From Streptomyces sp. MA5143a (GTDB lineage Bacteria > Actinomycetota > Actinomycetes > Streptomycetales > Streptomycetaceae): 64,000 nucleotides of DNA. The notes beneath the pieces are model-generated. The model saw only the letters and a program-made list of their open reading frames with translations. It had not been told where the DNA came from and did no database searches. The DNA is taken from contig NZ_OLMK01000061.1 in assembly GCF_900290235.1 (NCBI RefSeq), positions 1 through 64,000 of the forward strand. Reading direction: 5' to 3'. Every line of letters begins with the position of its first letter. Positions within the stretch are counted from its first letter, which is position 1. A program made the position numbers and the translations under genes. This document shows positions 18,764-33,631 of this stretch, piece by piece.

Positions 18764-19050
18764 CCCGCGATGTACTGCACGAGTTGTCCGACGGTCAGTC
18801 CGATGATGTCGGAGAGTTCGAGCGAGGCGAACCAGGCGGGGAAGTCGACCCGGTCGCCGTAGCGCCCGCCCAGCTCGGCGGTGAGCGTGACCAGGTCGAT
18901 GGACTCCAGGTCGAGGTCCTCCACGAAGCGGGTGTCGGAGGTGATCGGGGTGTCGTCCAGTTCGAGGTCGTCGAGGACCGTGCGCAGAGCGTCGGTGATC
19001 TCGGCGAGGACCGCGGCGTACGCGGGGCCGGTGGTGGTGGGGCTGGTCAT
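18751..19050 (-). CDS. Free-standing acyl carrier protein
   Basis: This 99-aa acyl carrier protein has phosphopantetheine site Ser50 in DLDLESIDLVTL, and the acidic flanks usual for ACPs. The ATG at 19050 overlaps the stop of the second synthase (ATGA) and has GAGGAG upstream, so it is made in step with it. The PPTase domain fused to that synthase could attach its prosthetic group. It may hold the finished chain for the hydrolase, or act as an extra carrier beside the single ACP domain in the first synthase. Confidence 0.92.
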   Translation of the reverse strand: MTSPTTTGPAYAAVLAEITDALRTVLDDLELDDTPITSDTRFVEDLDLESIDLVTLTAELGGRYGDRVDFPAWFASLELSDIIGLTVGQLVQYIAGCLR

Positions 19051-22000
19051 GATGGGCTCTCCTCGGTCCAAGCGACGGCGTAGGTACGGGTGGGCAGCCC
19101 CGGCGGGTTGGTCACATCGGCGAGCCGGATGCGCCGCAGTCGGCCGGAGGGCGCCCGGACCGTGAGGGCACGGGCGCCGTCTTCGACCTCGACCGCCGTG
19201 AAGTCCCGCGGTCGGCCGCCCAGTCCGGTGCCCTCGGCCTTGGCCGCGGCTTCCTTGGCGGCCCAGAACCGGGTCAGCGGGCCGGGGCCGCCGCCGAGCC
19301 CGGTGAAGAGCGCCCGCTCGGCTGGGGCGAGGACGGCGTCGTAGGTCGTTTCGGGGCGCTCGACGATCTCCTCGATGTCGATGCCGGTGCCGGTGCCAGG
19401 GCTGTCGGCGGCGGGGTGGACGAGTGCGACGGCGGCCTCCCGGCAGTGCGCCAGCGACAGCTCCAGAGGCGGGAGTTCTCTGCCGTGTACGCCCTCGGGG
19501 CGCGGTCTGCCGCCAGGGTCGTTGGCGACCCGTATCTCGGCGGGGAAGACGGGGCCCGCGCCGTGCGCCCACAGGTGGCGGCGTACGGCGTCCTTGGCGG
19601 CGATACGGCCGAGCAGCCACTGGCGCCGGCCGCGCGGGGGGTGCCCGGCGTACTGCTCGCGCTCAGGGCCCGCGAGCTGGCTGCGCATGTATATCTCGCG
19701 GGATGCGGGGTCGGGCCAGCGTTCGAAGACCAGCTGCCAACCGCCCTCCTGGGTGACCGACAGAGTGTTGTGCTCGGGCCATCGTTTGACCGGATCGACC
19801 TCGGGCGGCGAGTCGAAGCGCCGGTCCCGCCAGCCACGGATCTCGGCCCAGACCTCGCCGTCGCGGGCGAGCTGCGCGTCAGCCACCAGGGCGGTGTCCG
19901 TCACGGTGGTGACCCTGATGTGGCAGTCGAGTGCGGTGCCCTGTTCCGGTGGCGGGCCGTGGAAACGGATCTCCTCGACGCCCGTCGGGAAGACGATGGT
20001 GCGGTCGGAGTGCGTGGCCATCAGCCAGTAGCCCAGCAGCTGACCGACGTTGTCGAGGAGCGCGCCGGGCGCGGACGGGGTGGTCAGGACACCGCGGACG
20101 TGCCGCTCGCCGAGCGCTCCGATCTCGGTGATGCCGCGGAACCGTGGCCCGTGGAACATCCAGCGGTCGTCGTACATCTGCCGCGCGGACACAGCCGGAC
20201 GGCTCTCCGGGGCGTCCGGCCGCCACGGCCGTGGGCGGGGCGCGGTGTCGTGCCCGTGGGCGGTCTCGACCGTGGCGCGGGCCTGGCGCCCGAACTCCAC
20301 GGCGTAACGCCCCTGTCCCTCGGGCCGGACCGTGACCGTGGCCTCGGTGGGCGGGGCGGCGACGGTCCACTGCAGGAACCGGGCGTCGTGCACGGCCACG
20401 GCCCTCCCTGGGCCGGGCACGGCGTCGATCATGTGCTGCACCAGGGTGGTGGCGGGCACCACGGGCCAGCGGTCGGCGATCTCGGGCCAGTGCGCGGGCT
20501 GCCGGAAGAAACAGTGGTCGGCGAGGTACGGCATGGTGTCGAGTGCGATGCGCAGGGTGATGGCGCAGGGGGTGACGGCAGGCGGCGGCACCGCCCTGGT
20601 CGCCGCGGGCCCGGGGGGCGGCGCCGCGGGCGCGGTGCGGCGCGGGGCCGCTGCCGCGGCGAACAGTTCCGCCAGTTCCGCTGCCGTGTCCGCCGTCTCG
20701 CCGAGCAGCGAGCGCAGTTCGGCCGCCACGGGGCTCCGCGCGGCCACGGCCGCGAGCCGGTCCATCCCGGGTGCGGGTGCCGCGCGCAGGGTGCTGCGGA
20801 GCCGGTCCCGGGTGGCGGCGTCGAGCGAGACCAGCCCGGAGCCGAGGGTGAGGGGGACGACGGTGACGGGGGCGGGGACGGGGACGGCTCGCGGGCTCTC
20901 CGCGGCCGTACGGACGGTCTCCGCCGCAGGGTCGGTCTCCGCCGTACGGGCAGGCGCCGCCGTCGACCGAGGCATGGCCCCCGCGCGCAGCGCCGCGAAG
21001 TCCGGCTCGGCACCGTGCGACCAGAGTCCGGCCGCCACCCGGTACAGCTGCGAAAGCCCGCTGTGCCGGGGCGTGTTGGCGCTGAGCGTCAGGCACGCGC
21101 GGCTGGTGAGGGTGTCGTCCACGAGAGCCGGCAGCTGGCCCTGGCCCAGCTGTACGAAGGCCCGGAACCCGGCGTCGTACAGGGCCGTGGTGAGCTGCCG
21201 GAAGCGGACCGGTTCGAGCAGGTGGCGCACGAAGAGCGCGCGCGCTGCGGCCTCGTCGGCCGGGAAGGGCGCGGCGGTCGTGGCGGACCAGACGGGCACC
21301 CGGGGCGGGTGCAGCGTGAAGCCGCGCGCGGCCTTCTCGATGGAGGTGAGGTACGGGGCGAGCATCGGCGTGTGGAAGCCGGACTCGAAGGGCAGCAGCC
21401 GACCGAGCACTCCCGCGCCGCGCAGCCGCCCGATGAGCGCCTCGACCTGGTCGTGAGGCCCGCAGACGACAGTCTGGTGGGGCGCGTTGTCGTGCGAGAC
21501 GACGACGTCCGGGTACGCCACGAGCTCGGCATCCACCTGGTCCGCACCGGTGCCGAACGCGGCGAAGGCGAGCCCCGGGACGCGCAGCGCGGCCGGGTCG
21601 AAGTCCCGCAGGAAGGCGTCGACCTCGGCGTCCGCGTACATCCCGGCGACCGCCATCGCCGTCCACTCCCCCACACTGTGCCCGGCCAGCGCGTCCGGCC
21701 GGACGCCGATCCGGGCGAGCGCTCCGGCGAGCAGCCGGCCGAGGCCGACGACGGCCGCGCCGTGCCGGGCGACGTCGCCCACGCGGGCGTCCGGCCAGTG
21801 CGGCGTCGGCAGGTCGAAGTGGCGGGCGACGTCCTCGGCCCGCGGTTCGAACTCGGCCTCCAGCCCTGGGCAGAGGAAGGCGATCTTCCCGCCGCCCATG
21901 CCGAGCACCGGCCGCGGCGCGCACCAGACGTCGCTCCGGCCGCCCCATGTCCGGGCGCGGGCGACTGCCTTGCGGGCCAGGGCGAGGCGGCGGTCGGTGG

Positions 22001-23726
22001 GGTCCAGGACGGCGACGCGGGCGCCTCCGGCTCCCCTCGCTCCGCCCTCGGCGGCGGCCGCGCGCAGCTCGGTGTCGTCGGCGTCGAGCAGTTCGGCGAG
22101 GTCCTGCGGGGTCGCGGCGGCGAGCCGCAACAGCCGGGGCGGCTCGGCCACTTCGGCACGGCCCGAGGAGGCAGCAGGCCCGGCGCCCGGGCCGCCGGGT
22201 GCCGGGGCCGCAGGCGCGACGACCGGAGCCGATGCCGGTGCGGGAGCCGACGCCGGGGCAGGCGCCCATGCCGGGGCGGGCACGGGCTCCGGTACCGACT
22301 CCAGGACGACGTGGGCGTTGATCCCGCCGAAACCGAAGGCGCTGACCGCGGCACGTCGGACCTCCCCGTCCCAGGTCCGGGCCTGCTGGGCCGGAGCGAA
22401 GCGGGTGACGCGGAGCGCCGGGTGCGGGTCGTCGCAGTGCAGGGTCGGCAGGAGCATGCCGTGGTGCACCGCCAGGGCCGCCTTGACGAGGCCCGCCACA
22501 CCCGCCGCCGGCATCGTGTGGCCGATCATCGACTTCACGGAGCCGATCACGGCGTCGGGCCCGGCGTCCGGGTCCGGCGGCCCGAACACGTCGGCCAGCG
22601 CGGCCAGTTCGGCCCGGTCGCCGCCGGGGGTCCCGGTGCCGTGCGCCTCCAGGAGGCCGAGCGACCCCGGTGCCGCCGGGTCGAGCCCCGCTTCCGCCCA
22701 GGCGAGCCGGACGGCGCGGGCCTGGCCGCCGGGGTCCGGATTGACCAGGGAGCCGGCCCGTCCGTCGCCGGCCACGCCGACGCCGCGGACCACGGCGTAG
22801 ATCCGGTCGCCGTCGCGCCGCGCGTCCGCGAGCCGTTTGAGTACGACCACGCCGGTGCCCTCGCCCATCAGCACGCCGTCCGCGTCCCGGTGGAACGGGC
22901 GGATTCGTTGGGACGGCGACAGCGCCCGCAGCCGGCTGAAGACGGACCAGATCGTGATGTCGTGGCAGTGGTGTACGCCGCCCGCGAGCATCACGTCACA
23001 GCTGCCCGCCGCGAGCGCGCCGACGGCCTGGTCGAGTGCGACGAGCGAGGAGGCGCAGGCCGCGTCCACGGTGTAGGCGGGGCCACGCAGATCGAGCCGG
23101 TTGGCGACCCGGGACGCCGCGAAGTTGGGCACCAGGCCGATCACCGACTCGGGGCTCTGCTCCGCGCCGAGCGCGGCCGTGAACGCCATCCGTACCGCGT
23201 CGAGCCGCTCGCCGTCAAGCTCGGGCAGTAACTCGTGCAGGGTGCGCACCAGTTGGGCGGACGTACGCATCCGCTGGTCGAGTCGGGCGAGCCCGTCGCT
23301 CAGATAACCGCCGCGGCCGAGCACGACACCGACCCGGGAGCGGTCTTCGGGCAGTGCGGCGTCCCCCGCGTCGGCGAGCGCGGCCGCGGCGGTGCGCAGT
23401 GCGATCAGCTGGTCGGGTTCGGTGCCGGGCACGGAGTCCGGCATGAGCCCGAAGACGGTCGGGTCGAAGGCGGCGAGCGCGTCGAGCCCGTCGACGAAGC
23501 CGCCGCGGCGGCAGTAGACGCCATCGAGGCCGCGCCGTCCGTCCGGGTCGTAGTAGGTGTCCGCGTCCCAGCGGGCCTTGGGCACCTCGGAGATGGCGTC
23601 GGCGCCGGTGACGAGGTTGTGCCAGTACGCGGCCAGGTCACAGGCGCCGGGCAGGGTCACCGCCATGCCGACGATGGCGACGGGCTGCCGGTGCCGCGGG
23701 GCGGTCGGTCGCATCGTGGGGCTCAC
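19047..23726 (-). CDS. PUFA-synthase-like iterative PKS subunit: KS-AT-DH-PPTase
   Basis: This 1559-aa synthase has four domains. The KS (about 10-480) has Cys224 in VDAACASS, EAHGTGTPGGD and GSVKSMIGHT. A Pro/Ala-rich linker follows (about 480-525). The acyltransferase (about 570-940) has GHSVGE near residue 683. After a second linker comes a hot-dog dehydratase (about 1050-1330) with His about 1071 in LADHCFF and a second acid in ALLDNVGQ about 1223. The C-terminus is a 4'-phosphopantetheinyl transferase (about 1360-1559) with GTGIDIEE and FWAAKEAAAK. The GTG start overlaps the previous gene's stop (GTGA) and its own stop overlaps the ACP start. It lacks ACP and KR domains, so it must work in trans with the first synthase. 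Family: secondary-lipid (Pfa-like) synthases; product unknown. Confidence 0.93.
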   Translation of the reverse strand: MSPTMRPTAPRHRQPVAIVGMAVTLPGACDLAAYWHNLVTGADAISEVPKARWDADTYYDPDGRRGLDGVYCRRGGFVDGLDALAAFDPTVFGLMPDSVPGTEPDQLIALRTAAAALADAGDAALPEDRSRVGVVLGRGGYLSDGLARLDQRMRTSAQLVRTLHELLPELDGERLDAVRMAFTAALGAEQSPESVIGLVPNFAASRVANRLDLRGPAYTVDAACASSLVALDQAVGALAAGSCDVMLAGGVHHCHDITIWSVFSRLRALSPSQRIRPFHRDADGVLMGEGTGVVVLKRLADARRDGDRIYAVVRGVGVAGDGRAGSLVNPDPGGQARAVRLAWAEAGLDPAAPGSLGLLEAHGTGTPGGDRAELAALADVFGPPDPDAGPDAVIGSVKSMIGHTMPAAGVAGLVKAALAVHHGMLLPTLHCDDPHPALRVTRFAPAQQARTWDGEVRRAAVSAFGFGGINAHVVLESVPEPVPAPAWAPAPASAPAPASAPVVAPAAPAPGGPGAGPAASSGRAEVAEPPRLLRLAAATPQDLAELLDADDTELRAAAAEGGARGAGGARVAVLDPTDRRLALARKAVARARTWGGRSDVWCAPRPVLGMGGGKIAFLCPGLEAEFEPRAEDVARHFDLPTPHWPDARVGDVARHGAAVVGLGRLLAGALARIGVRPDALAGHSVGEWTAMAVAGMYADAEVDAFLRDFDPAALRVPGLAFAAFGTGADQVDAELVAYPDVVVSHDNAPHQTVVCGPHDQVEALIGRLRGAGVLGRLLPFESGFHTPMLAPYLTSIEKAARGFTLHPPRVPVWSATTAAPFPADEAAARALFVRHLLEPVRFRQLTTALYDAGFRAFVQLGQGQLPALVDDTLTSRACLTLSANTPRHSGLSQLYRVAAGLWSHGAEPDFAALRAGAMPRSTAAPARTAETDPAAETVRTAAESPRAVPVPAPVTVVPLTLGSGLVSLDAATRDRLRSTLRAAPAPGMDRLAAVAARSPVAAELRSLLGETADTAAELAELFAAAAAPRRTAPAAPPPGPAATRAVPPPAVTPCAITLRIALDTMPYLADHCFFRQPAHWPEIADRWPVVPATTLVQHMIDAVPGPGRAVAVHDARFLQWTVAAPPTEATVTVRPEGQGRYAVEFGRQARATVETAHGHDTAPRPRPWRPDAPESRPAVSARQMYDDRWMFHGPRFRGITEIGALGERHVRGVLTTPSAPGALLDNVGQLLGYWLMATHSDRTIVFPTGVEEIRFHGPPPEQGTALDCHIRVTTVTDTALVADAQLARDGEVWAEIRGWRDRRFDSPPEVDPVKRWPEHNTLSVTQEGGWQLVFERWPDPASREIYMRSQLAGPEREQYAGHPPRGRRQWLLGRIAAKDAVRRHLWAHGAGPVFPAEIRVANDPGGRPRPEGVHGRELPPLELSLAHCREAAVALVHPAADSPGTGTGIDIEEIVERPETTYDAVLAPAERALFTGLGGGPGPLTRFWAAKEAAAKAEGTGLGGRPRDFTAVEVEDGARALTVRAPSGRLRRIRLADVTNPPGLPTRTYAVAWTEESPS

Positions 23727-26700
23727 CGGCCCGACGCCGTCAGGACGACCTCGTCGGTCTCCGGCTCGCCCCAGGCCAGCTCCCGCAGCAGCGCGAGCAC
23801 TCCTTCCTCCGGGTCGATCAGCTCGATGCCGCGGCGCGCGTACTCCCGGCCCAGCTCAGGGCGGACCATGCCGCCGTGCGCCCCGGCCGGTGCCCACGGG
23901 CCCCAGTGCACGGTGACGGTACGACTGCCGGTGCCGGCGCGCCAGAGGCGGCCGAGGCGGGCGAGTGCGTCGTTGGCGGCGGCGTAGTCGGCCTGGCCGC
24001 GGTTGCCGTACACCGCCGAGACGGAGCCGAACATGACGGTGAAGGCGGGCAGTTGGGGAAGTCGCCGGAGAGCCGAGAGCAGTGCGCGGGCGCCGTCCAC
24101 CTTGGTGCCGTAGACCCGTTCGAAGGAGACGGGGTCCTTCTCGGCGAGCAGCCGGTCCTCGATCACTCCGGCGGCGTGTACGACCCCGTCGATCCGGCCG
24201 TACGTCGCGTACGTCTCCTTGACCGCCTGCTGCACGGCCTCCGCGTCCCGCAGGTCGAGTGCCCGGTACCTGGCCCTGCCGCCCGCGTCGTGTACCTCGG
24301 CCAGGGTCGCGGCGATCTCGCGGCGGGCCAGGACGCGGCCCGCTTCGCGGTCGATCTCTGCGGTGCTCAGACCGCCCCGGGCGGCGAGCGCCGCACGCAG
24401 CGCGGGCAGGTCGGTGGCGTGGGCCAGCTCGTGCTGGCCGCCCGCGCCGTCGTCGAGCGGCGTACGCCCGAGCAGTTCGACCCGGCAGCGTGCGGCGGCG
24501 GCAAGGGCGAGGGTGAACCGGGCTGTGATGCCGCGCGCGCCGCCCGCGAGGACGACGACCGACTCCGGGCCGAGCCCGAGTGCCGCGACTGCGGCGGCGC
24601 CGGAGGAGGCGGGCCCGGCGCCGGAGGAGACGGGCGGGCCCAGAGGGCTCTCGTACGGTACCGGGGCGCGGCGGAGCCCGCAGGTGCGCAGCACGACGGG
24701 CTCCCGGTCGGGCGCCAGCAGTTCCCCGACGAGTGCCTCGGCCTGCTCGGTGGCGGGCTCGTCGGGGTCGAGCTCCACGGCGCGGACCACGGTGTCGGGG
24801 TATTCGCGGGCCGCGGTGCGCACGAAGCCGTCGAGGCCGCTGGTGTCGTCGGGGAGGCGGGGACAGAGCAGTCGGCGCGGGCCGCGCAGCAGCAGTTCCT
24901 GGAGCACGGTGAGCTTGGCGGGCAGCAGTTGCTGTTCCGCACCCGCGAGAGCGCCCAGGTGCAGCACTCCGTCGACCGGGCCGGTGTGCCCGGCGAGCTG
25001 TGCGGTGTCCGGGCCGCCACGGGCGGCGAGCGCGCCGAGTGCGGTGAGCCGGATGACAAGTGCCCGTGCGAGTGGCGTGTCGTCCGCGACGATCAGGAAC
25101 CGTTTCCCGCGCAGCTGTGCCGCGCCTTCGGCGCCGGGCACGGGTGCCGGGTCGAGCGGGGCGGGCCGCAGCAGATAACGGTGGGGAGCCCGGCCGGTGA
25201 GCGGGTCGGGGGACCCCTCGGCGACGGGGGCCGGGGTGGCGAGGGCGGGAGCCGGGTCCGGGTCGGCGAGCGCCTTGACGCGGGCCCGCAGCCAGTCGGC
25301 GATCCCGGCGGCGGTGCGCTCCCGGGTCAGCTCCTCCAGGTCCGCGTCCGGCAACGACCGCAGATCCGCACCCGAGCCCAGCAGCCGCCGTCCCAGCTCC
25401 CCGGCGATCTCCGTCCGCTTGATCGAATCCACACTCAGATCCGCCTCCAGATCCGACTCCGCCCCCACCATCTCCACCGGATATCCCGTACGTTCCGCGA
25501 TCACCGCCAGCACCTCGGCCAGCACATCCACTCCCACCGGAGCGGGAGCGGGGGCCGGAGCCGCAGCGAGAGCGGCCGGAGCCGGGGCCGGAAGGGGTTC
25601 GGGGGTCGGCAAAGCCGCCTGCGGCGCGGGCGAAGCCCCGAGGTAGCCGAGGAGCACGTCCCGTTGTGCGGCCAGCATCTCCCGGCTGTTGCGCAGGAAC
25701 TCCCGGAGCAGTTCTTCCCGTTCGCCCATCGTCGTCGCCTCACTGGTCCGCTCTCCGGCCCGCGGGATGCCCGAGGTGCGCCGGGCCGGGCGCAGCGCTC
25801 CCGGCACCGGCCGGCCGTCCGCCGTTCGTACGAGGTGGCCGTCGACCGTCCAGCCCGGCCGCTCCGGCACGGCGGCCGGGTCGGCGAACGCCGTGTCGCG
25901 TCCGCTGAAGAGCCGTGCGGGCGCCACCGGGACACCGGCCGCGGCGAGCCGGGCCAGGGCCTCGAGGTGACCGCGCAGGCCCGCGTCGGGGCGGGGTTCG
26001 AACGGGACGGCGACGTGCGGTCGGTCGCCGAGGATCTGGCCGACCAGACCGGTGAGCACCGTGCCGGGCCCGCACTCGACGAAGATCCGCGCCCCGGCGT
26101 CGTACATCGCCTCGATCTGCTCGGCGAAACGGACGGGGGCGGCGATCTGCTCGGCGAGGTCGGCCCGTACCCGGGCGGGGTCCGAGGCATAGCGGGTGCC
26201 GGTGAGATTGGCCCAGACCGGGAACTCGGGGGCGCGCACGGCGTACGCCGTCAGGGTCTCGGCGAAGCGGGACACGGCCCCGGCGACCAGCGGGCTGTGG
26301 AAGGCACAGGCGACGGGCAGCGGGCGGACGGCGAACCCGGCGGCGGTGAGCGCGTCGACGGCTTCGGCGACGGCGTCCCTCGGGCCCGAGAGCACGCTCT
26401 GCGTGGGCGCGTTGTGGTTGGCGACGACGACCCGCTCGGCCAGGCCCGCCCCGGCGAGCACCCGGGTCACCTGCTCGGCGGAGGCCACGGCGGCGGCCAT
26501 GGTGCCGGGATCGGACCCCTGTGCGCCGATCGCGGCGAGGATCGCCTCGGCCCGCTCCCGGCTGAGGTCACCGAGCGTGTCGGGGTCGAGGGCACCCGCG
26601 GCGCAGAGCGCGACGAGTTCGCCGTAGGAGTGCCCTGCGGCCATGTCGGGGCGGACACCGACCGCGGTGAGGGTGTCGTACGCGGCGAGGCCGACCGCCC

Positions 26701-29700
26701 CGAGCGCGGGCTGGGCGTGGCGGGTGTCGGTGAGCCGGGCGACCTGTGCGGCGCGTTCGGCGGCGTCGAAGGCGGCGGGCGGGAAGAGGGCGGCGGCCGG
26801 GGCGTGGTACAGGTGGCGGCCGAGTTCGGGGAAGGCGGTGAACAGCTCGGCGAACATGCCGGGGCGCTGGCTGCCCTGGCCGGGGAAGAGGAACGCCACC
26901 TTGCCACCGTCGTCGCCGTCGGCCGCCACGGCGGCGGCGCCTGTGGCCGGGAACACTCCGCTTCTCCCGGGCGTGCCGTCGAGGAGGTCCCGTATCAGGT
27001 GCGGGAGTTCGGTGACGGACCCGGCGACCACGGCACCGAGGAGCGGGCCCGGGCCGGTCTCCGCGCGTTGTGCGGCGGTACGCGCCAGGTCCCGCAGCCG
27101 CCAGTGGCCGCTCGCCGCGAGGCCGGCGAGTTCCTCGGCCGCCGCGCGGGTGCGGAAGACGAACAGCTCGGCGGGCCAGACGTCGTGGCCCTGGCGCGGC
27201 GGCGCTCCGGCGTCGGCGTGGGCCCGCAGCACCACGTGGAAGTTGGTGCCGCCGAATCCGAAGGCGCTCACCCCGGCGACGCGGCGGGCGGCGGGCTCGG
27301 CCCAGGGCCGGGCCTCGCTGTGGAAGACGAAGGGGCTGTCGGGGCCGGTCCAGACGGGGTTGGGCACGTCGATGTGCAGGGTGGGCGGGCGCACCCCGGT
27401 ATGCAGGGCGAGCGCGGTCTTGATCAGTCCGGCGAGACCGGCGGCGCACTTGGTGTGCCCGATCTGGGACTTGACGGAGCCCACGACGCAGTTGCCGGGC
27501 GCGGCCCCGGCGTCCTCGAACAGCCGGGTGAGCGTGCTGAGTTCGGTGCGGTCGCCGACGACGGTGCCGGTGCCGTGGGCCTCGATCAGGCCGACCTCGG
27601 CGGGCGAGACGCGGGCCTGCGCGTAGGCGCGTTCCAGGGCGGCGCGCTGGCCCTCGGGGCGCGGCGCGGTCAGGCCGAGGGAGCGGCCGTCGCTGGCGCT
27701 GCCGACGCCCTTGATGACGGCGTAGATCCGGTCGCCGTCCCGCTCGGCGTCGGTGCGGCGCTTGAGTACGAGACAGGCGACGCCCTCGCCGAGTGCGATG
27801 CCGTCGGCGGCCGCGTCGAACGTGCGGCAGCGGCCGGTGGGCGAGAGCGCGTGCGCGGAGGAGAAGAGCAGGTAGTCGTTGATGCCGTTGTGCAGGTCGG
27901 CGCCGCCGCACAGGGCCACGTCGGCGGCGCCGAAGGCCAGTTCCTTGCAGGCGGCGTCGACGGCGGCCAGGGAGGAGGCGCAGGCGGCGTCGACGGTGTA
28001 GTTGGCGCCGCCGAGGTCGAGCCGGTTGGCGATCCGGCCGGCGATGACGTTGGCGAGCATGCCGGGGAAGGAGTCCTCGGTGAGCTTCGGGAGCTGCTCC
28101 TCCAGGTCCTCGGGAAGACGGCCGATGTACGAGGGCAGGACGCTGCGCAGCGTCGCGGCGCCGGAGATGTCGCTGCCCGCCTCGGCACCGAAGACGACGC
28201 AGGTCCGCTCGCGCGGGAAGGACCGGCGGTCGAGCCCGGCGTCGGCGAGCGCCCGCCTGGCCGCCTCCAGGGCGAGGAGCTGGACGGGTTCGATGGCGGC
28301 CAGGGAGGCGGGCGGGATTCCGTAGGCCAGCGGGTCGAAGGGGATCAGAGGCAGGAAACCGCCCCACTTGGACGCGGACACGTCGTCCGCCTCGGCGTCC
28401 GCGCCGAAGTGCAGCGCGGGATCCCAGCGGGTGTCCGGGACCTCGGTGATCGCGTCGGCGCCGGCGAGCACCTGGGCCCAGTAGGCGGGCAGGTCGGCGG
28501 CGCCGGGGAACATGCCGGCCATGCCGACGACGGCGATGTCGAGCGGTTCGGGAGTGGGGGCCGGGTTCCGTGCGGGTACCGTACCGCCCGCGTCGCGTAC
28601 GTCTGCGGCGAGTTCGGCGGTGCGGCGTCCGTAGAAGTCGGCGGCCCCGTCGGTGACCGCGTGGTGCAGGGCGTCCACGGTGGTGACGGCGGAGCGGAGC
28701 ACGGCGACCTCGCCGGCCATGAACATGCCCGCTTCGCGCTGGCGCTCCTCGTCGACGTCGAGCAGCTCGTGGCCGACCCGCTCGACGCCCTTGCTGGCGA
28801 TGCGCAGGCGGCCGACGTTGAGCCGCTCCAGCTCCTGCCAGACCTGCCGCTCGGGTATCCCCTGAGTCCGCAGCTCGTCCTTGACCTCCTGATACGTGTC
28901 GCTGAACGCGCTGGGCAGACAGCGGGTGGCGTGGCCGGGCGCGGTGCGCAGGAGCGTGGTCGACCTGGCGTCCAGGGCCGCGCGCTGGAACAGTGGCCGG
29001 ATGGCACCGCACTCGACGGCCTCCTCGGTGAAGAGGTAGCCGGTGCCCATCAGAACGCCGAAGACGGCACCGCGTGTGGTGAGCGGGGCGGCGAGCGCGG
29101 CGACCATGGCGGCGGAGCGCTCGTCGTGGATGCCGCCCGCGAACAGCACCTGTACGTCCTGTGGGTCGGCGGCGGCACCGCCATCGGCGTGACCGTCGTC
29201 GGCCGCCGCGTCGAGGAAGTCCTCCAGGACGGCCAGTTGCGCCTCCCAGAGCGGGAAGCTGTTGCGCGGCCCGATGTGCCCGCCGCACTCGGCGCCCTCG
29301 AAGACGAAGCGCCGGACGCCGGCCGCCAGGAACTGGCCGAGCAGCCCGGGCGACGGCGCGTGCAGAAAGGTACGGATGCCCTCGGCCTCCAGAGCGGCCG
29401 CCTGGGAGGGACGGCCGCCCGCGATGACGGCGTGGCTGGGGCGCAGCTCACGGACGGCCTCCAGTTGGGCGGTACGTATCTCTTCCGGAACGAAGCCGAG
29501 GATGCCGACGCCCCAGGAGCGGTCGCCGAGCGCGGACCTGGTCTGCTCGAGCAGGGTGCGGGTCTGCTCGGGCCCGGCCAGGGCGAGCGCGACGAACGGC
29601 AGTCCGCCGCCGTCCGCGACGGCCGCCGCGAACCGTGCCTGGTCGCTGACCCGGGTCATCGGGCCCTGGACGACCGGCAGTGTGGTGCCGAGCGCCCGGC

Positions 29701-30589
29701 ACATCGGCGAGCCGCCGCGCAGCACGGCGCCGTCGTTCGCCACGGCGGCGTCGATGCCCTCCCTGACGGCGGCGAGGGCGCGGTCCACGGTGCCGTACCG
29801 CTCGGCGAACCGGGCGGCGAGAAAGGCATCCTGGCCCAGCGGCAGGGGCCGGTCGCGCAGGACGGCCGGGAGACCGGGGCGGCTTCGGTCGAGCACCCGG
29901 CAGCCGTCGACGACGACGGTCTCGGTGCCGTCGGCGGCGCGCAGCAGACCGGCGACCGCGGGGGCCGTACCGGCCTCGTCGAGCAGTGCGAGCTGGATGT
30001 CCAGCACGACTCCGCGGGCGCCCGCGAGCACGGCGGCGGCCGCGGTGTGCGGCCCGATGCCGCCGCAGGCCCACACCGGCAGATCGGCCGGTACGGCGCC
30101 GAGGACGCGCTGGAGCAGCACGAAGGTGGAGTGTTCGCCGCAGGGGCCGCCGGACTCCTCGCCGCGCACGACGAGCCCGGTGACACCGTCGGCCACGGCC
30201 CGGACGGCCTCGCCGGGGCCGCGGACCTCGGCGAGCACGGCGGGGTCCGCGGCGGCGGCGCGGGCGGTGGCCCGGACCTCGGCGACGGTCCAGGGCGCGT
30301 CGGGGGCGAGGAGCACGGTGCACGGTCCGGCGGCGGCCGGGTCCGCGGCCCGCCGCGTTCCGGCGGGCGCCGGGGCCCACAGCTCTTCGGGGCGCAGCGC
30401 ACAGTCGGCGGGGACCCGCACGCCGTGGCGGCCCGGGGCCCACTGCCGCAAGAGGGTCAGGGCCTCGCGGGCGGCGCGGGCGCCCGGGCCGAGGTCGAGG
30501 ACACCGGACCCACCGGCCCGGCATACGGCGGCGGCGAGGCGGGGGTCTGGTGCACCCAACGGGCTGACACCGATAACGGTGTGCGTCAT
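23723..30589 (-). CDS. PUFA-synthase-like iterative PKS subunit: NPD-NPD-KS-AT-ACP-KR
   Basis: This 2288-aa synthase begins with two nitronate-monooxygenase/PfaD-type TIM-barrel segments. The first (about 1-290) has GVTGLVVRGEESGG and CGGIGPHTAAA. The second (about 320-640) has VVQGPMTRVSD and GAECGGHIGPR. Together they could form an FMN-dependent enoyl reductase. The KS (about 735-1180) has Cys about 868 in VDAACASS, EAHGTGTVVGD and KSQIGHT. The AT follows (FPGQGSQ, GHSYGE about 1320). The ACP has DLSVDSIKRTEI (Ser about 1721), a motif characteristic of PUFA-synthase ACPs. The C-terminal KR has VLAGGARGIT and SSVSA...DYAAAND. ATG 30589 has GAGGAG about 10 nt upstream. It heads a six-gene minus-strand operon and needs the next gene for dehydration and ACP activation. 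Confidence 0.93.
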   Translation of the reverse strand: MTHTVIGVSPLGAPDPRLAAAVCRAGGSGVLDLGPGARAAREALTLLRQWAPGRHGVRVPADCALRPEELWAPAPAGTRRAADPAAAGPCTVLLAPDAPWTVAEVRATARAAAADPAVLAEVRGPGEAVRAVADGVTGLVVRGEESGGPCGEHSTFVLLQRVLGAVPADLPVWACGGIGPHTAAAAVLAGARGVVLDIQLALLDEAGTAPAVAGLLRAADGTETVVVDGCRVLDRSRPGLPAVLRDRPLPLGQDAFLAARFAERYGTVDRALAAVREGIDAAVANDGAVLRGGSPMCRALGTTLPVVQGPMTRVSDQARFAAAVADGGGLPFVALALAGPEQTRTLLEQTRSALGDRSWGVGILGFVPEEIRTAQLEAVRELRPSHAVIAGGRPSQAAALEAEGIRTFLHAPSPGLLGQFLAAGVRRFVFEGAECGGHIGPRNSFPLWEAQLAVLEDFLDAAADDGHADGGAAADPQDVQVLFAGGIHDERSAAMVAALAAPLTTRGAVFGVLMGTGYLFTEEAVECGAIRPLFQRAALDARSTTLLRTAPGHATRCLPSAFSDTYQEVKDELRTQGIPERQVWQELERLNVGRLRIASKGVERVGHELLDVDEERQREAGMFMAGEVAVLRSAVTTVDALHHAVTDGAADFYGRRTAELAADVRDAGGTVPARNPAPTPEPLDIAVVGMAGMFPGAADLPAYWAQVLAGADAITEVPDTRWDPALHFGADAEADDVSASKWGGFLPLIPFDPLAYGIPPASLAAIEPVQLLALEAARRALADAGLDRRSFPRERTCVVFGAEAGSDISGAATLRSVLPSYIGRLPEDLEEQLPKLTEDSFPGMLANVIAGRIANRLDLGGANYTVDAACASSLAAVDAACKELAFGAADVALCGGADLHNGINDYLLFSSAHALSPTGRCRTFDAAADGIALGEGVACLVLKRRTDAERDGDRIYAVIKGVGSASDGRSLGLTAPRPEGQRAALERAYAQARVSPAEVGLIEAHGTGTVVGDRTELSTLTRLFEDAGAAPGNCVVGSVKSQIGHTKCAAGLAGLIKTALALHTGVRPPTLHIDVPNPVWTGPDSPFVFHSEARPWAEPAARRVAGVSAFGFGGTNFHVVLRAHADAGAPPRQGHDVWPAELFVFRTRAAAEELAGLAASGHWRLRDLARTAAQRAETGPGPLLGAVVAGSVTELPHLIRDLLDGTPGRSGVFPATGAAAVAADGDDGGKVAFLFPGQGSQRPGMFAELFTAFPELGRHLYHAPAAALFPPAAFDAAERAAQVARLTDTRHAQPALGAVGLAAYDTLTAVGVRPDMAAGHSYGELVALCAAGALDPDTLGDLSRERAEAILAAIGAQGSDPGTMAAAVASAEQVTRVLAGAGLAERVVVANHNAPTQSVLSGPRDAVAEAVDALTAAGFAVRPLPVACAFHSPLVAGAVSRFAETLTAYAVRAPEFPVWANLTGTRYASDPARVRADLAEQIAAPVRFAEQIEAMYDAGARIFVECGPGTVLTGLVGQILGDRPHVAVPFEPRPDAGLRGHLEALARLAAAGVPVAPARLFSGRDTAFADPAAVPERPGWTVDGHLVRTADGRPVPGALRPARRTSGIPRAGERTSEATTMGEREELLREFLRNSREMLAAQRDVLLGYLGASPAPQAALPTPEPLPAPAPAALAAAPAPAPAPVGVDVLAEVLAVIAERTGYPVEMVGAESDLEADLSVDSIKRTEIAGELGRRLLGSGADLRSLPDADLEELTRERTAAGIADWLRARVKALADPDPAPALATPAPVAEGSPDPLTGRAPHRYLLRPAPLDPAPVPGAEGAAQLRGKRFLIVADDTPLARALVIRLTALGALAARGGPDTAQLAGHTGPVDGVLHLGALAGAEQQLLPAKLTVLQELLLRGPRRLLCPRLPDDTSGLDGFVRTAAREYPDTVVRAVELDPDEPATEQAEALVGELLAPDREPVVLRTCGLRRAPVPYESPLGPPVSSGAGPASSGAAAVAALGLGPESVVVLAGGARGITARFTLALAAAARCRVELLGRTPLDDGAGGQHELAHATDLPALRAALAARGGLSTAEIDREAGRVLARREIAATLAEVHDAGGRARYRALDLRDAEAVQQAVKETYATYGRIDGVVHAAGVIEDRLLAEKDPVSFERVYGTKVDGARALLSALRRLPQLPAFTVMFGSVSAVYGNRGQADYAAANDALARLGRLWRAGTGSRTVTVHWGPWAPAGAHGGMVRPELGREYARRGIELIDPEEGVLALLRELAWGEPETDEVVLTASGR

Positions 30590-30679
30590 GGGGGGAGGCT
30601 CCTCTGTGCGATCGAGGGGGTGTGCGATCGGGACGAGCGGATTGGTGCACGCCGCGCCCTTTGGAGCTGATGACCCGTC

Positions 30680-30705
30680 AGATACTAATGGGTAGTCAGT
30701 TATCT
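30680..30705 (-). promoter_or_regulatory. Candidate operator/promoter upstream of the lipid-synthase operon
   Basis: About 90-115 nt before the synthase ATG the DNA turns A/T-rich and holds an imperfect palindrome with outer arms AGATA (30680-30684) and TATCT (30701-30705). On the minus strand it contains TAGTAT, a possible -10 element. The shape suits a TetR-type operator. No good -35 was found. Confidence 0.35.
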
Positions 30706-30921
30706 GGCTGCACCCCTGACACCGATCGATGAACAGGAACCGCAATGAGTCGGACTCGGTCGCCGCAGAGCTCGGCCATGTCGTCGATGTCGGAAATCGG
30801 CTTGACCGCCGGCCGTGACCGCACGCCTTACCGCGCGGACTCTCAGCCTTGATTCACCGATCCACGGCCGGTCCGGAGCCTGGACATGAGGGTGAGCAGC
30901 CGTGGGTGTCCGATTCGCCCC

Positions 30922-31014: not shown

Positions 31015-31878
31015 TTACAGCGGGCAGGTGATCTGGAAGACGACCGTGTGGGGGTCGTTGGGGGTGGGGCAGAGGAACTGGTCGTAGCGGGTGTCGTTGT
31101 CGACGAAGCGCTTCAGCCAGGAAACGCTGTACTGGGCGATCGTGGTGTTCGGCTTGGCGAAGGTGAAGTGGTCGGTGTCCTTGAGCACGATGAGTGACTT
31201 GTCGGGGGCGTTGGCCAGCCCGTTGTAGAAGGGCAGGGCGAAGTCGTCGACGGAGGCGACGGTGTCACCGTCGGCGCCGAAGATCATGGTGGGGACCGTG
31301 ATCCGGCTGGAGACGTTGCTGAGGTCCCAGGGTGCCAGCGGGATGGCCGCCTTGAGCGACGGGGTGCTCGCCGCGCTCTGCAGCGAGCCGCCGCCGCCCA
31401 TCGACCAGCCCATCACGGCCAGCCGGGCGGGGTCGATCCGGTTCTTCACCGTGCTCTGGGCCGTCAGATAGGTGAGTGCGGCGAGTTGCTGCCTACTGCG
31501 GTCGGTGGGGAAGTCCCACAGCGCGTTGGTGTTCAGGGTCATCACCACGAAGCCCTGGGAAGCCAGCCGGGGTCCGTACCAGGCGATGTCCGACTGCGAG
31601 GCGAGGAAGCCGGGCATGATGGCGATGGCACCGAAGGTGCCCTCGCTGGTATCGGTCGGGTAGTAGACGGTGCCGCTGTTGAAGCCTTGGCCGCTGCCTG
31701 CCGGCACGGTGACCGAGCCGATGTCGAAGGGACCGGTTTCGGCGGTGATGCTCTCCAGGGTCGGGGCCGGGCCGCGCTCGTAGGGGTTCTGCGAATCAGC
31801 CTGGGCCGGGGTGGCGAGGGCGGTCGCCATGACGACCGCGACGATCGCCGTGAGCGCTCGGAACGGGAGCAGTTTCAC
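31015..31878 (-). CDS. Secreted PET-hydrolase/cutinase-family polyester hydrolase
   Basis: This 287-aa exported hydrolase has a Sec-type signal peptide (MKLLPFRALTAIVAVVMATA, likely cleaved after AQA at residue 27). The mature part begins NPYERGPAPTLESI as in actinobacterial cutinases. Catalytic residues are Ser159 in GWSMGGGGS, Asp205 in GADGDTVA and His237 in DTDHF. Trp184 (PWD) matches the PETase substrate-cleft Trp. Trp158 before Ser replaces the His common in Thermobifida cutinases and matches IsPETase. Phe91 replaces the usual oxyanion-hole Tyr (PGY to PGF). Two C-terminal Cys (270, 285) fit the conserved disulfide, and the extra PETase disulfide is absent. The GTG start has GAGAGGA upstream. 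It lies 23 bp after a secreted-protein gene. Probable substrates are cutin, polyhydroxyalkanoate or lipids. Confidence 0.93.
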   Translation of the reverse strand: MKLLPFRALTAIVAVVMATALATPAQADSQNPYERGPAPTLESITAETGPFDIGSVTVPAGSGQGFNSGTVYYPTDTSEGTFGAIAIMPGFLASQSDIAWYGPRLASQGFVVMTLNTNALWDFPTDRSRQQLAALTYLTAQSTVKNRIDPARLAVMGWSMGGGGSLQSAASTPSLKAAIPLAPWDLSNVSSRITVPTMIFGADGDTVASVDDFALPFYNGLANAPDKSLIVLKDTDHFTFAKPNTTIAQYSVSWLKRFVDNDTRYDQFLCPTPNDPHTVVFQITCPL

Positions 31879-31901: not shown

Positions 31902-32564
31902 TCAGTTGGTGTAGATGACGGGAGAGTCGCTGACGCTGCTGTCGACCACGGGGGCGTAGGTGGCGGTGAAGTAGCCGTTGGCCGTGCACAGCGCCGAGCC
32001 GGAGACCTTGATGAACCTCTGGTTGGTGAAGGTCAGACTGTTGTCGCTGTTGGAGCTCACTGCGGAGAGGCTGGGCGCCTGGTAGACACAGGTGATGGAG
32101 CCCAGCAGAGTGGAGAGCGCCACCGTGGTCTGGATCGCCCTGCCCGGGGCCGCGGTCACCGTGACGGTGCCGTCGGAGGAGGCGGCTGTGTTGTAGGGCA
32201 GGCCATCGACGGTGATGCTCTGCACCCCGAAGACGCCGAAGACGTTGCTGGTGCAGCCGTTGAAGGTCTGTGAGGTCGCGGACTCGGTGGCGGTGCCCGG
32301 GGCGGCGGGGTTCGCCGTCACCGTGGCGGAGAGTGTCGATTCGGCGCAGGTGATGCCGGAGGTGCCGTTGCCGCTGGTGGCCAGGGTGGCGTTGGTGCCG
32401 CTCGCCAACGATGCGGTGAGTACGTCGCCGACGGAGACGGCGTTGCCGTCGGCACTGCCGTAGGTGAGCACGGCGGTGTCCGCCGGGGCGGCGGTGGCCG
32501 GGAGGATGGCCAGGGCCGTCGAGGCGGCTGTGGCGACCAGGGTGGAGACGGCGTATCTGCGCAT
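31902..32564 (-). CDS. Secreted Cys-containing protein of unknown function
   Basis: This 220-aa protein has an N-terminal signal sequence (MRRYAVSTLVATAASTALAI, cleavage near ATAAPA). The mature part is Ser/Thr/Ala-rich and looks beta-stranded, with four Cys (ITCAES, NGCTSN, ITCVYQ, SALCTA) that could form two disulfides. I recognise no family. It is exported and probably beta-sandwich-like. The ATG at 32564 has AGAGGAA upstream. It precedes the cutinase-like gene by 23 bp in the same operon, so it may bind the same polymer or the cell surface. No catalytic motif is visible. Confidence 0.75.
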   Translation of the reverse strand: MRRYAVSTLVATAASTALAILPATAAPADTAVLTYGSADGNAVSVGDVLTASLASGTNATLATSGNGTSGITCAESTLSATVTANPAAPGTATESATSQTFNGCTSNVFGVFGVQSITVDGLPYNTAASSDGTVTVTAAPGRAIQTTVALSTLLGSITCVYQAPSLSAVSSNSDNSLTFTNQRFIKVSGSALCTANGYFTATYAPVVDSSVSDSPVIYTN

Positions 32565-32878: not shown

Positions 32879-33631
32879 ATGGCAGCAGGCTCGTCGGCAC
32901 GGCCTCCGCTGGTGCTGCCCGGTACCCGCACGGGACGCGATCCGGAGCGTTCCCTGCGGCGTGGACCGCGCCGCACCCCGCCCGAGGTGGTCGCCGCCAA
33001 CCAGCGTGACCGGCTCCTGGACGGTTTCGTCCGCACCGTTGCCCAGGTCGGCTACGCCCGCACCCGGGTCAGCGACATCTGCCAGGCGGCAGGCGTGACC
33101 AGGCCGGTCTTCTACGAGCTGTTCAAGGGCAAGGAGGACGCCTTCCTCGCTGCCCACCAGTACGGCACCTCCCTGGTCTTCAGCGCCATGGAGGAGGCCC
33201 ACGCCCAGGCCTCCGACTGGCCGGGTCGGGTGCGCGCCGGGCTCGGCGCGCTGCTCGGCATCCTCGCCAACGCGCCCGCATTCGCCGTCATGGCCATCGT
33301 GGAGATCGACGCGGTCGGCCCGGCCGGGCGGGAAGCACGCGAGGAACTGTTGGCCCGGTTCCGGGACTTCTTCACCGACCTGCACGAGGTCGAACTTCCC
33401 GTCCCGACCGAGGAGTTGGTCGACATGGTGATCGGCGGGGTGTACTCCGCGATCTACCGGCGGATCGCCGCCGACCGAACCGCCGAGCTGCCCGGCCTGC
33501 TGCCCGGCCTGGCCTTCTCCGTACTGGCCCCCTTCCTCGGTCCGGAACGCGCAGCTGCCGACCTGGCCGACCTCGCCGACCCGGCGCCCTCCGCCAGCCC
33601 CGTCCCGGCCTGCCTGGCCCGGGAGACCTGA
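32879..33631 (+). CDS. TetR-family transcriptional regulator
   Basis: This 250-aa protein has an N-terminal TetR helix-turn-helix (about 42-90: RDRLLDGFVRTVAQVGYARTRV, then ICQAAGVTRPVFYELFKGKEDAF). The rest is a helical ligand-binding part ending in a Pro/Ala tail. An extra ~35 basic residues precede the HTH. The ATG at 32879 has GAGGAAGG upstream. It is divergent from the secreted protein/cutinase operon, so it probably represses that operon, possibly with itself, in response to a lipid-like ligand. The palindrome at 30680-30705 ahead of the synthase operon is another conceivable target. Confidence 0.9.
   Translation: MAAGSSARPPLVLPGTRTGRDPERSLRRGPRRTPPEVVAANQRDRLLDGFVRTVAQVGYARTRVSDICQAAGVTRPVFYELFKGKEDAFLAAHQYGTSLVFSAMEEAHAQASDWPGRVRAGLGALLGILANAPAFAVMAIVEIDAVGPAGREAREELLARFRDFFTDLHEVELPVPTEELVDMVIGGVYSAIYRRIAADRTAELPGLLPGLAFSVLAPFLGPERAAADLADLADPAPSASPVPACLARET

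Follow-up and report, generated by a model that had tools for sequence, protein, structure and literature searches.

A predicted type I cutinase/PETase-family esterase of Streptomyces from a clade with Trp158 and Phe213 in the cleft

Results

A clade of Streptomycetaceae hydrolases with two replaced cleft residues

The window, a stretch of 64,000 nucleotides from Streptomyces sp. MA5143a, encodes a hydrolase of the cutinase/PETase family that belongs to a Streptomycetaceae clade carrying Trp158 and Phe213 in the cleft. We put the probability at about 0.78 that it is an extracellular esterase on a type I scaffold, acting on natural lipids or polyesters. Its family, its residue content, its clade and, by prediction, its fold are established by the results below. 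The coordinates of the features are collected in Table 1.

Table 1. Features of the hydrolase gene, its neighbours and two disrupted homologues. Coordinates refer to the window unless a locus is named.
Feature	Coordinates	Strand	Basis or remark
CDS of PF12740 hydrolase, 287 aa	31015..31878	-	GTG start, stop included; ORF and sequence
Probable Sec signal peptide, residues 1-27, AQA before the cleavage site	31798..31878	-	Translation read by eye
Phe91 codon, clamp residue; main-chain NH expected to supply one half of the oxyanion hole	31606..31608	-	Alignment with PHL7 variant F63 and IsPETase Y87; function as described in PMC10076380
Nucleophile elbow GWSMGGGGS, residues 157-165, with Trp158, Ser159, Met160	31384..31410	-	Sequence and alignment
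Asp205, putative catalytic acid	31264..31266	-	Alignment with IsPETase D206
Phe213, replacing His (IsPETase S214, PHL7 H185) beside the mobile clamp Trp	31240..31242	-	Alignment; role of the position as described in PMC10076380 and PMC10080609
His237, putative catalytic base	31168..31170	-	Alignment
220-aa protein, signal peptide by eye, predicted all-beta	31902..32564	-	Directly upstream of the hydrolase, 23-nt gap
Divergent TetR-family regulator	32879..33631	+	PF00440, 37 bits; synteny
PfaA-like multidomain synthase, downstream neighbour	23723..30745	-	ORF extent; true start probably inside
S. lanatus hydrolase without 5' end, adjoining resolvase-domain gene (PF00239)	L007 720-3087	-	
Hydrolase body fused in frame to carboxyl-transferase N-terminus (PF01039), signal peptide lost	L085 (G068) 1501-2802	-	

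Family assignment, fold and predicted catalytic machinery

The GTG start of the hydrolase gene was preceded by a purine-rich GAGAGGA stretch. A signal peptide, read by eye from the translation as was that of the upstream protein, suggested that the hydrolase would be secreted. In a profile search, PF12740 scored 353.5 bits (cut-off 28), and no second PF12740 match at E 0.001 was found in the same genome, leaving the hydrolase as the sole match. Together with the motifs GWSMGGGGS (from residue 157), GADGDT (from 201) and DTDHF (from 234), this score bore out the cutinase/PETase assignment of the first-pass annotation, whose numbering of Phe91 and Trp158 on the precursor also agreed with the translation. 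The NCBIfam model for bis(hydroxyethyl) terephthalate hydrolase (NF051441) gave 383.7 bits, below its equivalog cut-off of 520 bits, and this score was counted against our main reading.

In the alignment, Ser159, Asp205 and His237 coincided with the triad of known enzymes, Met160 and Trp184 were kept, and so was the C-terminal cysteine pair C270/C285. The hydrolase thus shows a putative Ser-His-Asp triad in a G-x-S-M-G frame and, by alignment and model, an alpha/beta-hydrolase fold. The AlphaFold2 model, built with 37 window and locus sequences as input, had a mean pLDDT of 94.9, and Foldseek superposed it on 7ykq_A with a TM of 0.98, an rmsd of 0.8 and 54% identity. The solved structures nearest by structure were type I enzymes, with the T. 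curvata hydrolase at the top and 1JFR near the top. By sequence, engineered PHL7 variants came first and wild-type PHL7 (7nei) lower; the variants were followed by 8ety and its kin (named ancestral PETases), engineered MtCut, 1JFR, the T. curvata hydrolase and PET40. Neither its modelled fold nor its predicted chemistry sets the hydrolase apart within the family.

Phe91 and the oxyanion hole

Phe91 had been singled out as an altered oxyanion-hole residue replacing a near-invariant Tyr. Residue counts came from two sets that have genomes in common and each contain the window: a Streptomyces set with all 130 family matches from 295 genomes (E 1e-60 or better) and a class set with all 85 from 394 class-wide genomes (E 1e-80 or better). 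At position 91 the Streptomyces matches had 80 Phe, 48 Tyr, one Trp and one Leu; the class set held 27 Phe and 58 Tyr, and the 80 nearest named loci 60 Phe, 19 Tyr and one not covered. Phe was thus the commoner residue in Streptomyces and frequent across the class, and the supposed invariance of Tyr was not upheld. According to the published descriptions, the hole is formed by main-chain NH groups, those of F63 and M132 (the Met after Ser) in PHL7 (PMC10076380) and of F98 and M172 in PE-H (PMC7031157), so both enzymes have Phe at this position. Replacing the wild-type Phe of PHL7 with Tyr (F63Y) is reported to lower activity only slightly (PMC10076380). Because Phe is common and the hole uses backbone NH, Phe91 is neither unusual nor oxyanion-altering, and an altered hole was ruled out.

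Distribution of Trp158 and Phe213

Trp158 aligned with IsPETase W159, at which position the PHL7 variant has His. Of the 130 Streptomyces matches, 125 had His here and 5, from 5 of the 295 genomes, had Trp; in the class set Trp was found in 3 of 85 matches, namely the window and two copies (L201, L202) in genome G632. These results bore out the earlier match of Trp158 to IsPETase and showed the residue to be rare among actinobacterial relatives. Genome G632 held six PETase-family matches (L144, L201, L202, L211, L247 and L248), two of them with the Phe and Trp pair. Two Micromonosporaceae hydrolases (L036, L044) had Tyr before the nucleophilic Ser (GYSMGGG).

Position 213 corresponds to the S214/H185/H218 site next to the clamp Trp, which is described as controlling the mobility of that Trp and whose His is called strictly conserved outside IsPETase (PMC10080609). 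The Streptomyces set had 116 His, 5 Phe, 5 Tyr, 2 Leu and 1 Met at this site, with one match not covered. Since His was found in 116 of 130 matches, strict conservation is too strong a description, though Phe is rare. The same 5 of 130 matches carried both Trp158 and Phe213, and the two residues marked the same 11 of 158 distinct sequences in a pooled set (171 loci, merged), a share biased toward near relatives because the sequences were chosen by similarity. Each residue also occurred without the other: Trp158 with His213 in L201 and L202, and Phe213 with His158 in L250.

The trees comprised every third ordinary relative of the pooled set and the unusual ones, and a tree of 83 rows added 13 loci. 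In this tree the 11 Streptomycetaceae rows with Trp158 were monophyletic (support 100/99), on a different branch from IsPETase, the outgroup. L201 and L202, from another actinobacterial family, lay elsewhere and carried the Phe and Trp pair on their own branch; the Trp character needs two changes, with IsPETase uncounted. The co-occurrence of Trp158 and Phe213 reflects one branch event in the clade and therefore has no statistical weight; a joint change on a single branch proves no coupling.

Two further cleft positions differed in the clade: position 92 was Leu, Val or Phe, against Thr in 119 of the 130 Streptomyces matches, and position 97 was Asp, Glu or Gln, against Ser in 108 of 130. The neighbouring branches (Actinomadura L008-L010; Streptomyces L017, L025 and L087) kept His158 but had Met213 with Val or Ile at 92, so the substitutions at 92 and 213 arose before, or in parallel with, that to Trp. 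Two other candidate marks of the clade were rejected: Asp236 was also present in one PHL7 variant and in 13 of 130 Streptomyces matches, and Asp185 was shared, in the alignment, with IsPETase and with Actinomadura relatives.

The combination of residues in the hydrolase had been called unusual, and this held for Trp158 (5 of 130) but not for the pairing of Phe with Trp, which is known from PE-H (F98/W170; PMC12117601), from the PHL7 variant H130W and from L201 and L202. Among the sequences compared, the cleft variant is rare and the two headline residues, Phe91 and Trp158, are not unique; Phe213 is more unusual than either. A shifted substrate range is possible, and Phe213, Leu92 and Asp97, which the first-pass annotation did not mention, would be a better basis for it. 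In the literature searched, whose coverage was partial and included few subscription journals, we found neither activity data for a member of the Trp158/Phe213 clade nor a paper attributable to one.

Comparison with characterized PET hydrolases

No Cys stood at the positions equivalent to IsPETase C203/C239, and the loop after the catalytic His was three residues shorter than in IsPETase. The hydrolase thus has neither a second disulfide nor an extended loop, as in type I, and lacks the type II counterparts. The absence of the PETase disulfide had been listed as a peculiarity; it was indeed absent, but it does not distinguish the hydrolase, being missing in type I enzymes as a rule according to PMC10076380 and PMC10080609. 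Two type I features differed. The hydrolase has Phe213/Phe217 at the S214/I218 positions, where His/Phe is the type I feature, and its nucleophilic Ser is preceded by Trp158 instead of His. Trp before Ser is a type II (IsPETase/PE-H) feature, found here on a separate branch. Trp is also reported there in PHL4-6, as described in PMC10076380, so His may be usual in type I without being a strict mark of it.

The hydrolase was 58% identical to one PHL7 variant over the mature part and shared with PHL7 (type I) the clamp Phe, the Met, the Trp, the lack of a second disulfide and the C-terminal cysteines. It differed in having Trp158 and Phe213 where PHL7, described as thermophilic, has H130 and H185, and Leu92 where the residue following the clamp Phe is Thr in the aligned variant. 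PE-H of Pseudomonas aestusnigri (6SBN, type IIa), compared from published residue descriptions rather than from its full sequence, resembled the hydrolase in the F98/W170 pair and in PGF followed by a non-polar residue (PGFV), whereas its extra disulfide, its extra residues near the catalytic His and its Tyr250 are missing from the hydrolase. IsPETase (type IIb) shared the triad, the Met and W159 and D186, the counterparts of Trp158 and Asp185; the hydrolase was 51% identical to it and lacked the three residues S214, I218 and S238 as well as the second disulfide and the extended loop. SM14est and the S. exfoliatus lipase 1JFR matched the hydrolase in genus and fold, but SM14est is described with Y88/H155 and 1JFR was 54% identical by structure alignment. 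Among the enzymes compared, therefore, we met no characterized Streptomyces hydrolase of close identity with the same residues, a find that would have spoken against the novelty claimed earlier.

Published variants bear on the replacement at 158. PHL7 H130W, which places the Phe/Trp pair on a type I scaffold, had its Tm lowered by 4.4 degrees and kept 15% of its activity after 8 h at 70 C, and IsPETase W159H gained 8.5 degrees in Tm and lost activity at 37 C; the authors read Trp as suiting ambient and His as suiting high temperature (PMC10076380). Higher PET activity has been reported for the IsPETase double mutant W159H/S238F (PMC10080609), so this reading is not uniform. Our best guess, by analogy with the authors' reading of Trp, is that Trp158 would suit ambient temperature.

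Selection and gene breakage in the clade

Ratios of dN/dS were computed for hydrolase pairs with one method over the same 690-nt stretch; one sequence can enter several pairs, and the ratios are inflated where dS is low in GC-rich third positions. The median was 0.61 in the clade (19 non-independent pairs, 7 sequences) and 0.26 in the His-type relatives (72 pairs, 58 sequences). At dS of 0.15-0.35, the clade ranged over 0.41-0.64 in 11 pairs, whereas 68 His-type pairs had a median of 0.27. For the window hydrolase, eight comparisons gave 0.53-1.16, the highest value coming from the close pair with L003. In the same strains, the upstream gene gave 0.64-0.82 (8 comparisons), the TetR gene 0.16-0.29 (6 comparisons) and the PfaA-like gene 0.31-0.54 (4 comparisons), so both secreted-type genes exceeded their flanks. 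Against L006, dS was 0.277 for the hydrolase, 0.180 for the upstream gene and 0.439 for TetR, and dN was 0.148, 0.127 and 0.087, respectively. The raised ratios thus stem partly from higher dN and partly from a dS lower than that of TetR in both secreted-type genes, for which strong codon bias or high expression may be responsible.

The gene was full length, with a GTG start and a stop, in 9 of 11 distinct clade members (the window and eight others), and its 5' end was lost in L007 and L085. The resolvase-domain gene adjoining the L007 remnant, together with a 569-aa ORF at this locus that had no Pfam match and appeared transposon-associated by eye, suggests insertion of a mobile element. The fusion in L085 is either a real rearrangement or an assembly artefact. 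Since the 5' end was lost in one strain and the gene fused in another, the hydrolase gene is dispensable in places. Trp158, Phe213, the triad, the clamp and both cysteines were invariant in the 10 aligned clade sequences, down to 72% identity.

The upstream gene and its neighbourhood

The window copy of the upstream protein had no Pfam or NCBIfam match, and 10 of 25 relatives gave weak hits to DUF7143 (Pfam, best E 0.0077). Its model was all-beta with a pLDDT of 80.3. Foldseek returned nothing under E 0.001 (best E 0.12), and a structural second look (VIA) gave hollow barrels, OmpW at Z 9.3 and DynF at Z 8.2, values near background, so that none of these matches gives a confident fold. Of the 11 distinct clade members, 9 had this gene adjoining the hydrolase (the window, L002-L006, L084, L086 and L172; L083 is an exact copy of mature L004); it was not found at L007 or L085. 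It stood beside none of 25 His-type Streptomyces relatives (L087-L111, flanks up to 1.5 kb). Of 295 Streptomyces genomes, at least 103 carried a member of the family, a lower bound because only 10 candidates per genome were scored; the genome of the window has a second copy, on C147. At L115, L116 and L118, a close form lay beside TetR with no hydrolase in the flanks examined.

The TetR gene lay beside the upstream gene in 6 of 8 full-length clade members outside the window (L002-L006, L084) and was not seen at L086 or L172 within about 0.7 kb. The PfaA-like synthase was not seen beside L005, L006, L085, L086 or L172 within the flanks examined; a link between hydrolase and synthase is not general, because the two adjoin only in a tight subgroup. 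At 19047-30745 on the minus strand, the window encodes two large PUFA-synthase-like multidomain proteins, one with a nitronate-monooxygenase-like domain, KS, AT, ACP and KR, the other with KS, AT, dehydratase and phosphopantetheinyl transferase. Downstream of these genes lie an alpha/beta hydrolase and a methyltransferase-domain ORF.

Discussion

From these results we infer catalysis, substrate, temperature range and the effect of each residue. The protein would be a secreted serine carboxylester hydrolase of the cutinase/PETase family (PF12740) on a type I scaffold, using a Ser159-His237-Asp205 triad and an oxyanion hole formed by the backbone NH of Phe91 and Met160, with Phe91 and Trp184 as an aromatic clamp. 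The clade differs in its cleft, with Trp158 for His in subsite II and Phe213 for His behind the clamp Trp in subsite I. The substrates would most likely be natural lipid or aliphatic polyester esters, hydrolysed outside the cell at moderate temperature, and any PET activity would be incidental and weak.

We consider it unlikely that the hydrolase is instead a true PET-active, IsPETase-like mesophilic PETase, in which Trp158 and Asp185 would give PET hydrolysis at ambient temperature. Both residues match IsPETase (W159, D186); PGF, Ser-Met and DNDTRYDQFLC agree with the part of the M5 motif of PET-active enzymes (PMC12224614) that was compared; and PE-H, with the same Phe/Trp pair, is reported to hydrolyse amorphous PET (PMC7031157). 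IsPETase S214, I218 and S238 are nevertheless replaced here by Phe213, Phe217 and Phe238, and restricting the clamp Trp by S214H is reported to have halved MHET release by IsPETase (PMC10076380). The missing disulfide, the shorter loop and the separate branch also argue against a PETase. If the gene were instead an accessory one decaying under relaxed selection, its active-site changes would be drift; this would account for the higher dN/dS of the clade and for the losses at L007 and L085, and on these two grounds a reduced role is possible. Yet Trp158, Phe213, the triad, the clamp and both cysteines are unchanged across the aligned clade sequences, each of the nine distinct members besides L007 and L085 keeps the gene at full length, and clade pairs of intermediate dS stay at 0.41-0.64, so that decay appears a rather poor candidate beside a functional esterase.

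The neighbouring gene raises a different question. The hydrolase and the all-beta protein may act as a pair, the partner binding a lipid substrate or product or stabilizing the enzyme outside the cell, as would be consistent with the 23-nt gap, the adjacency in 9 of 11 clade members against 0 of 25 His-type relatives, dN/dS raised in both genes and not in their flanks, and the hollow barrels among the partner's best structural matches. Those matches are near background, however, and the partner family is widespread without the hydrolase, at L115, L116 and L118 even beside TetR, while a codon bias shared by two exported proteins, with lower dS than TetR in both, could explain the ratios; we judge the pairing improbable. 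Further still from what we expect is the broader proposal that this lineage rebuilt a type I cutinase cleft (Trp at 158, Phe at 213, acidic residues at 97, 185 and 236) for a distinct natural ester, alongside a co-transcribed secreted beta-barrel carrying the hydrophobic substrate or product, with both genes changing together faster than their neighbours.

Collectively, these results give no grounds for seeing a new kind of enzyme in the Phe213/Trp158 clade, which is a variant of a well-known family. As a natural clade, it offers a wild-type test of the trade-offs among stability, temperature and substrate at both positions.
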